A model generated the notes under the pieces. The model had not been told where the DNA came from and searched no databases. It saw nothing but the letters and a program-made list of their open reading frames with translations. From Candidatus Hydrogenedentota bacterium (GTDB lineage Bacteria > Hydrogenedentota > Hydrogenedentia > Hydrogenedentales > JAEUWI01), in contig JAEUWI010000011.1 in assembly GCA_016791475.1 (NCBI GenBank), forward strand, positions 62,001 through 126,000: DNA of 64,000 bases, read 5' to 3'. Shown piece after piece: positions 7,123 to 24,691 of the stretch (the first letter of the stretch is position 1; each line of letters begins with the position of its first letter). Made by a program: the position numbers and the translations under genes.

Positions 7123-7161
7123 GGGATGCGAGGAATCGCGGTGAATTGAGAGGGAGTAACT

Positions 7162-8046
7162 TTGGATTACACTGAATTTGATGAAGATTATGAGAACTGG
7201 GACAAGCCGTCCATGCCCACGATTACAGCAGAGACAGTAAGGGAACTGCATCAGGACAAGAGTACTAAGCGAATTTGTTTTGCTCCCTACTATGAACACT
7301 GCAACTATTTGAAGGTCAAACCAGCGGGGAATGTGTTTGTTGGCGCAGTGAATTTTCCCTTCGCTCAGGGAGTGAAGTGGGTGTTTCCCCGAAGATTATT
7401 TCGCAATCGGAACAGTGATAAACCGCTCGATGTTTGGTACGGGATTAAAACGCAAGAAGAGTTCGAATTAATTCAAGACTGGATTCACAGGCAAGGGGAA
7501 CGCGTCTATCTCCGAGACGGCCTTTCTATCTCGATAGCATTGGCACTTAACTTTCGAGGGCTAGGGGAACAATACACCGAGATTGGCGCGTTGCAGAACG
7601 CCGCAAAGTACCGCGAAGATAGAATGGCTACTGAAAGGCTGGTCGAAGCCTGCTGCAAAACAATTGTGGACTTGCCTTACTTGAATTGCACCAAATATAT
7701 CGCCGCTGTTCCTTCTGAAGTTGGAAAACCTTTCCATTTGCCTTATCAAATTGCAGGGGGTGTCGCTCACCGGCTCCATTTGAATGATATCTCACATAGT
7801 TTTTCGGAGTTTGCAAAACAGAAATTGAAAGATCGAGGTATTGAGCAGAAGTGGGACGATTGGGAGGCCACCGGACTCATGGTTAACCGAGACCTGAGCG
7901 GACAAGACGTAATCTTGGTTGATGATCTGTACCAATCCGGAACTACCCTTCAGTTTGTCGCGATGAAGCTGCAGAAGGCGGGTGCGCGAAATGTGTTCGG
8001 CCTTTGCCTTGTAAAATCTTTAGGGAATACGGATAATAAATCATGA
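7162..8046 (+). CDS. Phosphoribosyltransferase-fold protein (ComF-like PRTase) paired with a DprA/SLOG protein
   Basis: A protein of 294 residues. The C-terminal third is a type I phosphoribosyltransferase fold: a PRPP-binding loop VILVDDLYQSGTTL at about residues 250-263, followed by KAGARNVFGLCLVKS, and upstream a segment KYIAAVPSEVGKPFHLPYQ that resembles the ComF substrate region. The N-terminal ~170 residues match nothing I recognise and lack the zinc-finger cysteines of true ComF. The TTG start is chosen because GGGAG stands five bases before it; the next ATG (7213) has no such support. By hand count, G+C is 22/60 at 7261-7320 and 24/60 at 7681-7740, against 42/60 at 6301-6360 in the neighbour, so the gene was probably acquired by transfer. 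Only 30 bp separate it from the next gene, so they likely form an operon. Substrate unknown. Confidence 0.75.
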   Translation: MDYTEFDEDYENWDKPSMPTITAETVRELHQDKSTKRICFAPYYEHCNYLKVKPAGNVFVGAVNFPFAQGVKWVFPRRLFRNRNSDKPLDVWYGIKTQEEFELIQDWIHRQGERVYLRDGLSISIALALNFRGLGEQYTEIGALQNAAKYREDRMATERLVEACCKTIVDLPYLNCTKYIAAVPSEVGKPFHLPYQIAGGVAHRLHLNDISHSFSEFAKQKLKDRGIEQKWDDWEATGLMVNRDLSGQDVILVDDLYQSGTTLQFVAMKLQKAGARNVFGLCLVKSLGNTDNKS

Positions 8047-8076
8047 AAAGTTTCCTAGTCGACACTGGAGCAAGCC

Positions 8077-8811
8077 ATGACAACGGACACGGCCCCTGAC
8101 ATCACGGAATTGACGCTTGATTCTGCAGCCTATCCTGAGAAGGTCAAGGTCCTTATGGGTTCCAAGGCTCCGGCGTCGCTATTCGCTGTTGGGAACCTGC
8201 GACTCCTCGAAAAGGACGCAATAGGTTTCTGTGGATCTCGAAAAGCCAGTGACCGTGGATTGGAAACGGTTCGGGATTGCGCATTTCAAGCGGCGAATGC
8301 CGGTGTTGTCGTGGTATCCGGAAACGCCGCGGGCGTAGATTTCAGTGCTCACTATGTAGCACTGGAAGCGGGCGGTGAGACCATCCTAGTCCTTCCCGAG
8401 GGTATCAATCATTTTCAGGTGAAACGTGCTTTGCGACCCGTTTGGGATTGGGAGCGCGTTCTGGTTCTGAGCCAGTTTCGACCGGATACGCCATGGCGCG
8501 CGTTTCAGGCGATGAGCAGAAATCAGGTGATCATCGCCCTGAGCGGCGCTATGGTTGTCATCGAGGCTGGCGAAAAAGGCGGGACCATCAGTGCGGGATT
8601 GGACACGCTGAAACTCAACATCCCCTTGTATGTCGCAGAGTACAAGGACATGAACGAGGTCGCCGTGGGCAACCGAACCCTGATCGCCAAAGGCGGCAAG
8701 AGTTTGCGCAGAAGCGCCACGACGGGCAAGGCCAATATGTCCAATGTCTTCCAGGATGTTCACCAGAAAGCGGGTTGGTCGCAATCGTCGTCACAATTGG
8801 GCCTATTTTGA
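8077..8811 (+). CDS. Minimal DprA/Smf-like SLOG-fold protein
   Basis: A protein of 244 residues that retains only the Rossmann core of DprA. Seen: FCGSRKAS at residues 51-58, VVVSGNAAGVD at 78-88 with AH at 91-92, SRNQVIIALS at 147-156 and EAGEKGGT at 163-170. All correspond to DprA family blocks for the GSR loop, SGxAxGID and RNRIIxxLS/EA. It lacks the N-terminal SAM-like and C-terminal winged-helix domains of full competence DprA, which is usually longer than 300 residues. DprA loads RecA on single-stranded DNA, and other SLOG proteins bind or cleave nucleotides. The neighbouring PRTase suggests a nucleotide-based role, possibly in conflict or stress; this is inference. A GGAG lies shortly before the ATG. 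Confidence 0.8.
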   Translation: MTTDTAPDITELTLDSAAYPEKVKVLMGSKAPASLFAVGNLRLLEKDAIGFCGSRKASDRGLETVRDCAFQAANAGVVVVSGNAAGVDFSAHYVALEAGGETILVLPEGINHFQVKRALRPVWDWERVLVLSQFRPDTPWRAFQAMSRNQVIIALSGAMVVIEAGEKGGTISAGLDTLKLNIPLYVAEYKDMNEVAVGNRTLIAKGGKSLRRSATTGKANMSNVFQDVHQKAGWSQSSSQLGLF

Positions 8812-8850: not shown

Positions 8851-8877
8851 GCGCAAAGAAGGTTCTTGTCTTTGCGC
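8851..8877 (+). terminator. Hairpin after the PRTase/DprA pair
   Basis: GCGCAAAGA at 8851-8859 pairs perfectly with TCTTTGCGC at 8869-8877 across a 9-base loop. No strong T-run follows, so termination is uncertain. The right arm merges into a 9-bp repeat array. Confidence 0.4.
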
Positions 8878-8896
8878 TCTTTGCGCTCTTTGCGTT
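8870..8896. repeat. 9-bp array, unit CTTTGCGCT
   Basis: Three consecutive 9-bp units (CTTTGCGCT, CTTTGCGCT, CTTTGCGTT) lie between the convergent dprA-like and sulfatase genes. This is one of several intergenic arrays in the window with a 7-, 9- or 10-bp period. Confidence 0.8.
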
Positions 8897-23306: not shown

Positions 23307-23407
23307 CATGGGTCACCTTCGCAGACGCGGTGCTCTTGTTCGTCCTTCCCCCTTGCATCCCGCCATCGCTCTTGCGGTATAACTACCCCTACCGAAAGAG
23401 AGCCGCC

Positions 23408-24691
23408 ATGACCGCACCTGCCTTGAAATCGCCCAACTTCAATTTTCTCGCCGATCACGATCCCCAGCTTCTCGAATACGCGGCGCGGGCCGAGCGCTAT
23501 GTCCTCGACGACCCGAACACGACCTTAATCAAATTGCGCCAGCTCGCCGAGGCGCTGGCGGAGGATGCGGCGGCCTACGACGGCATGCGCCTCCTCCCGG
23601 AAGATGATTTCAGCGACATCCTCCGTCGCCTCAAGCGCGAGGATATCATCACGCAGGAAATGGCGGACATCTTCCACGGCCTGCGCAAGGCGGGCAACGA
23701 AGCGGCGCACGAGGGCGGTGGCACGCGCCAGGATGCGGTTTCGCAGTTGAAACTGGCCCACCGCCTCGCGGTGTGGTTTCATCGGGCCTTTCGCGATCCG
23801 GCCTTCAAGCCGAAACCCTTTCTTCTGCCGCCCGCGCCGGACGGTGTGGCCCCCGAAGTGAAGGAAGAGTTGGAGCGCCTGCGCAAGGCCCGTTGGGATG
23901 CGGAGCGCGAGGCCGACGAATCGGAAGAGGCTCTGGAGGTGGCCGAGCGCAAGCGCGCGGCGGCGGAAGCGAAGGCGGCGGAGCTCTACGCGGACCTGGA
24001 AGCCGCCCTGGCCCTCGCGCGCGAGTCGGAGACCGATCAGGAGGCCATGTTCCGCAGGCACGAGGCCGCCGTGGCCCGGCTCCGCGCCGAAGCACACTCC
24101 GCCAGCCACGAAGAGCGCGCCGCGCGCCAGCACCAGGCCCGAAGCGCCGCACAGGCTTTCGATCTCTCGGAGGCCGAAGCCCGTGAACGTATCGACGCGG
24201 ACCTCCGCGCGAAGGGCTGGGAGGCCGACACCATCGTCCGCACCCGGGCCCACGGCGCACGGCCCGAGGCGGACCGCAACATGGCCATCGCGGCGGTCCC
24301 CACCCCCGCGGGCCCCGCCGACTACATCCTCTATTGCGGACTGCGCGCCGCCGCCGTCATCGAGGCCAAGCGGAGCAACACCGATCTCCGCGCCGCCCTG
24401 GACGAAGCCGCGCGCTACGGCATGGTCTATCAGGCCCTCGCCGACGAAACCGTCGCGGAGGATACCGCCACGGGACACCCCATCCCCCTGCTCTTCGCGA
24501 GCAATGGTCGGCCTATCGTTTCGGAGTCCGATCCCCGCAGCGGCATCTGGACGCGGGATGTCCGCAGCGGAAAAACTCGTGCGCTAAAAGATTGGCCTAC
24601 GCCGGAGGAATTGGCCGCGATGATAAAGGCTCCCGCAGACGTGCCACGCGATTCCGCCGGAGGCGGATTCGTGTGCCCTGAGCCTCGTTGA
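23408..24691 (+). pseudogene. Truncated type I restriction subunit HsdR (DUF4145, coiled coil and nuclease domain only)
   Basis: 427 residues that match only the first part of HsdR proteins, which normally run to about 1,000. Seen: LADHDPQLLEYAARAERYV and LIKLRQLAEALAEDAAA (DUF4145-like, about residues 10-130), a long charged coiled coil (about 150-260), then the HSDR_N PD-(D/E)xK nuclease domain with PADYILYCG and VIEAKRS (E-x-K pair) and FASNGRP near the end. The helicase that should follow WTRDVRSGKTRALKDWPTPEEL is absent. The last 17 codons run into an inverted-repeat element starting at 24641, which seems to have cut the gene. No hsdM or hsdS is in the window. A stand-alone nuclease cannot be excluded, since the domain is intact. 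GAAAGAGAG precedes the ATG. Confidence 0.7.

Follow-up and report, generated by a model that had tools for sequence, protein, structure and literature searches.

A gene for a phosphoribosyltransferase (PRTase) that is closely followed by a gene for a DprA/SLOG core raises the question of whether the two encode an undescribed system, as the initial annotation of this locus proposed, or a module of a known kind. We investigated the pair within its window, that is, the whole stretch of 64,000 nucleotides that was analysed (G000:C11:62001-126000). The pair is probably a deep-branching variant of the DprA-PRTase toxin-antitoxin/anti-phage modules of the PsyrTA/RqlHI and ShosTA kind. Because RqlHI, PsyrTA and ShosTA have been published and both proteins match the corresponding PADLOC models, the system cannot be called undescribed; the broader proposal of a conflict- or defence-type PRTase-SLOG module is supported by the adjacency of the genes and by the PsyrTA/ShosTA matches.

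Layout, setting and products of the gene pair

According to the ORF list, the two genes lie on the same strand at 7162-8046 (294 aa) and 8077-8811 (244 aa) and are separated by 30 bp (8047-8076), as initially annotated. The locus comprises the following features:

7152..7156, + strand: likely Shine-Dalgarno sequence GGGAG, 5 nt upstream of the PRTase TTG start (sequence reading)
7162..8046, + strand: PRTase, candidate toxin, 294 aa, TTG start (ORF, PF00156, PADLOC PsyrT, Foldseek)
7162..7476, + strand: N-terminal extension of the PRTase, residues 1-105, no family (Pfam scan, pLDDT, shuffle test)
7573..8025, + strand: PRTase core, residues 138-288 (pLDDT mostly 70-97; alignment)
7906..7947, + strand: PRPP-binding loop DVILVDDLYQSGTT, residues 249-262 (alignment of 16 rows)
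8067..8070, + strand: likely Shine-Dalgarno sequence GGAG ahead of the DprA start (sequence reading)
8077..8811, + strand: DprA/SLOG core, candidate antitoxin, 244 aa (PF02481, PADLOC, AF2, Foldseek)
8233..8241, + strand: GSR motif, DprA residues 53-55 (DprA alignment; alignment with 3uqz)

The G+C content is 46.6% for the PRTase gene (GC3 49.5%, z = -9.6) and 55.4% for the DprA gene (GC3 61.2%, z = -4.4), compared with 62.9% (sd 1.7) for the 19 other window ORFs taken as genes and 61.6-63% for the genes flanking the pair. The low G+C content that had been noted is therefore real, but the contrast is smaller than the 40% against 70% first given. The pair is flanked by a PSCyt/DUF1501 gene pair on one side and a sulfatase gene on the other, with a class-III aminotransferase also adjoining; none of these neighbours (DUF1501, sulfatase, class-III aminotransferase) is a competence gene, and no defence gene adjoins the pair. 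In the same-genus genome G001, an orthologue of the DUF1501 gene is present (85%) and the pair is absent; the sequence beyond this orthologue is unlike the window, so that it defines no empty insertion site. Because of its low G+C content and its absence from same-genus genomes, the pair was probably acquired horizontally. This agrees with part of the earlier description as a mobile module, but a mobile unit of its own is not indicated, since the window contains no tRNA and the pair has no convincing flanking repeats (one imperfect 15-bp pair was taken as chance).

Directly past the pair, at window 8870-8894, there is a tandem repeat of the CTTTGCGCT type, and TTTGCGCTCTTTGCG has 27 near copies in the genome compared with 3 for a reversed control pattern. 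Elsewhere in the window (23330-24691, + strand), a 453-aa ORF matches PADLOC REase_I (E 6.5e-48) and DUF4145; its match is limited to the N-terminal ~424 residues of a type I restriction R subunit, and it is probably a truncated HsdR.

The C-terminal part of the first protein matches PF00156 with an E-value of 1.3e-4, which is under the family cut-off. Its match to PADLOC PsyrT (E 1.9e-11, 41 bits) covers only PsyrT positions 538-685 of 689, and that to PADLOC ShosT (E 6.4e-5, 21 bits) only 43 residues (243-285); TIGR00201 scored 26 bits against a cut-off of 233.55. The PRPP loop is intact, as had been reported, and its residues D254, D255, S259 and T262 are invariant in all 16 rows of the PRTase alignment. 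A structure model, built from an alignment without the rows from plasmid records, reached pLDDT values of mostly 70-97 across residues 138-288 and less than 50 for most of residues 1-120. Foldseek against the PDB placed Helicobacter pylori ComF (7p0h) at the top, followed by ShosT (8zvb, 8zvd, 8zvc; TM 0.39-0.40 by query length for ShosT). A Pfam scan found no helicase domain in the protein, and its N-terminus contains no zinc-finger cysteine set, nor CxxC cysteines ahead of the PRTase part, which bears out the absence of a ComF zinc finger noted at the outset. PRTase-family similarity starts at about residue 110-138, leaving ~105-137 N-terminal residues that match no Pfam family above its cut-off. 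A family-less N-terminal region had been described before, but its length was overestimated at about 170 residues.

The second protein has PF02481 as its sole domain (E 4.5e-40). It matches PADLOC PsyrA (PDLC03927; E 5.8e-53, 178 bits) over residues 12-231, in the core only, and ShosA (PDLC03961; E 4.9e-31, 106 bits). The AF2 model (mean pLDDT 92.9) consists of the Rossmann core alone, and neither it nor Pfam revealed a SAM-like or winged-helix domain, in line with the initial description of a DprA core without accessory domains. Streptococcus pneumoniae DprA was the best Foldseek match, and ShosA (8zva) was matched as well. In the DprA alignment, G53 and R55 are invariant across 15 rows, and the GSR motif aligns with the GSR of S. 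pneumoniae DprA (3uqz).

Distribution and phylogeny

A scan of 11.3 million genome contigs with the PRTase, which reaches close relatives only, returned a single relative, from Terracidiphilus gabretensis (Acidobacteriota). There, the DprA gene begins directly after the PRTase stop codon, the identities are 42% (PRTase) and 54% (DprA), and the pair also matches the PADLOC models. Because a homologous adjacent pair is present in this second phylum, the adjacency goes beyond chance. Residues 20-77 of the N-terminal extension are weakly similar to T. gabretensis sequence in a different frame (score 45; 2 of 2000 shuffles scored as high), and the T. gabretensis copy may therefore be frameshifted or misassembled in its N-terminal part. 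The full-length variant has one close homologue only, with a seemingly broken PRTase frame. Among the 68 genomes searched in the window's phylum, no other one has the pair, and the three same-genus genomes searched lack it.

The DprA matches in 347 Acidobacteriota genomes comprised the T. gabretensis protein; L068, which is fairly close and lies at the end of a contig; four pairs in which DprA accompanies a stand-alone PRTase; and one group in which a longer RecQ-PRTase-type protein is encoded upstream. Of 30 strong PsyrA-like DprA loci in the phylum of G106, 16 adjoin a PRTase of the family, compared with none of 13 lower-scoring loci, 12 of which come from the window's order. PRTases more remote from that of the window have DprA or another SLOG protein as neighbour in many genomes. 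Conserved adjacency, the check proposed in the initial annotation, was thus found both in T. gabretensis and in these wider PRTase-DprA/SLOG pairs. The whole PRTase gave no match when searched against plasmids, phages and viral contigs, nor did the DprA alignment against viral contigs. Plasmid-borne RecQ-PRTase+DprA relatives are located within BREX and type I RM loci, and a further plasmid relative adjoins a methyltransferase and a helicase. At two loci (L102/L124 in G955 and L103/L127 in G956), one PRTase gene stands beside two close DprA-like genes.

In the DprA tree, the window protein groups with that of T. gabretensis (98/96), joined by L068 (97/90), and is separate both from the clade linked to RecQ-PRTases (100/100) and from the housekeeping clade (100/97), which includes the genome's own housekeeping DprA, a separate gene (L001). 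A third DprA-like gene of the genome (L002, G000:C10:61752-62327; 315 aa) has no PRTase neighbour and sits on a long branch. In the PRTase tree, window and T. gabretensis proteins form a long branch of their own (100/100). The RecQ-linked PRTases form a single clade (100/98), and the stand-alone DprA-paired PRTases another (99/97), beside PRTases with a non-DprA SLOG partner. Because branches are long, the deep placement in this tree is unsure.

These last PRTases belong to a second, conserved type of two-gene unit, in which a ~200-aa PRTase is followed immediately, mostly with an ATGA overlap, by a ~185-aa non-DprA SLOG protein. We observed it in seven genomes of two phyla (L018/L066, L019/L067, L021 and L022 in the window's order; L074, L075 and L077 in the order of T. 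gabretensis). The SLOG protein has a weak YspA/YAcAr match and no strong PADLOC match, and the unit is possibly an undescribed toxin-antitoxin pair. On this branch, PRTases seem to have exchanged one SLOG partner for another, and their pairing with two SLOG families (DprA and YspA-like) suggests that SLOG proteins are general partners of PRTase toxins.

Candidate mechanism and alternative readings

Toxicity of RqlH maps to its PRTase domain and is lost with D663A, which affects an Asp of the PRPP pocket; RqlI likely binds and restrains this domain (PMC4670107). A DprA+PRTase pair guards E. coli from T7 and lambda (PMC9122126). In the account given in PMC12593503, citing Pu et al. 2025 (Nat Commun 16:3141), ShosT is a PRTase and pyrophosphatase that perturbs purine pools, and ShosA is a DNA-binding antitoxin. 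By homology, the toxin is most likely the window PRTase, and its antitoxin the DprA core. In the resting state, the DprA core would be bound to the PRTase and hold it back. A phage or DNA-damage signal, plausibly single-stranded DNA on DprA, would release the toxin and the cell would be stopped; the PRTase would consume PRPP and, as has been reported of ShosT, upset the pools of purine nucleotides, which would lead to DNA damage. A counterpoint is that the PsyrT and ShosT matches are weak (41 and 21 bits) and confined to the PRTase half.

The N-terminal 105 residues could stand in for the RecQ helicase of PsyrT, in targeting, sensing or oligomerising. Because the PRTase domain of RqlH is non-toxic in isolation (PMC4670107), this extension may be needed for toxicity here. 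More tentatively, the pair could represent a DprA-PRTase subtype of its own, with a new ~105-residue N-terminal domain that does the sensing or targeting of RecQ and with the bare DprA core as the whole antitoxin. A pair reduced to a DprA core and a helicase-free PRTase would offer a small system for mapping the DprA-PRTase contact and for finding out whether the Rossmann core is enough.

The top Foldseek matches, ComF and S. pneumoniae DprA, would also suit a non-toxic role in nucleic-acid metabolism or repair, with a ComF-like PRTase as helper and DprA loading RecA on single-stranded DNA during recombination or DNA uptake. We consider this unlikely: the window DprA stands apart from the housekeeping clade in a genome that has its own housekeeping DprA, its TIGR00732 score of 121.9 bits (cut-off 191.15) is exceeded by its score on the model for the PsyrA antitoxin, the ComF zinc finger is absent, and distribution is patchy and G+C content low. 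Ordinary competence had already been doubted in the initial annotation, and the lack of adjoining competence genes and the position outside the housekeeping clade agree with that.

SLOG proteins of other systems bind nucleotides. This, together with the pairing of related PRTases with a second, non-DprA SLOG family, favours the mechanism originally suggested, nucleotide signalling by way of a base-ribose compound that is made by the PRTase and sensed or cleaved by the SLOG protein. It appears less probable still, as we recognised no separate effector domain in the PRTase or the SLOG protein and as the DprA-like protein is the antitoxin in studied relatives (PMC4670107; for ShosA, the account in PMC12593503). 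Nothing seen here supports binding or cleavage of the product by the SLOG protein; the RqlHI partner likely binds and restrains its PRTase (PMC4670107). A decayed, functionless remnant of a transferred defence island, to which the lack of adjoining defence genes and the seemingly frameshifted T. gabretensis copy might point, is very improbable given two intact ORFs with their key motifs and ribosome-binding sites.

Comparison with known systems

The window pair shares with PsyrTA/RqlHI the toxin-then-DprA gene order, a DprA core that is closest to PsyrA, and a PRTase half that matches PsyrT 538-685. It differs in that its toxin has neither a RecQ helicase nor CxxC cysteines ahead of the PRTase, and PsyrA residues 1-96 and 313-398 are absent from its DprA. 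With ShosTA it shares the combination of PRTase and DprA, the folds (ShosT 8zvb/8zvc/8zvd, ShosA 8zva) and the ShosA sequence match, whereas the sequence match to ShosT is weak, no N-terminal likeness is recognisable, and the ShosA chain has 331 aa compared with 244 aa. ComF (ComFC) has the same PRTase fold (7p0h), but the window pair has no zinc finger and no adjoining competence gene, and DprA lies downstream. The stand-alone pairs of a ~200-aa PRTase and a ~320-aa DprA (Acidobacteriota; phylum of G106) are likewise two genes with a short, helicase-free PRTase. Their PRTases, however, carry NPxxIxGNWRxGWALDxHTxSS at the start, have no 105-aa extension and fall into another PRTase clade, and their DprA is longer.

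Overall, the pair combines adjacent, co-directional and conserved genes with an intact PRPP loop, as in DprA-PRTase toxin-antitoxin pairs, and its DprA does not group with the genome's own DprA in the tree. This DprA matches both the PsyrA and the ShosA type, but the PRTase is not a RecQ-PRTase fusion and does not match ShosT over most of the length. Because there is no RecQ helicase, we did not file the pair as PsyrTA, and because ShosT is not matched over its length, we did not file it as ShosTA. It belongs to the wider DprA-PRTase kind. Its novelty is architectural: ~105 N-terminal residues, no RecQ or zinc finger, and a bare Rossmann-core antitoxin.
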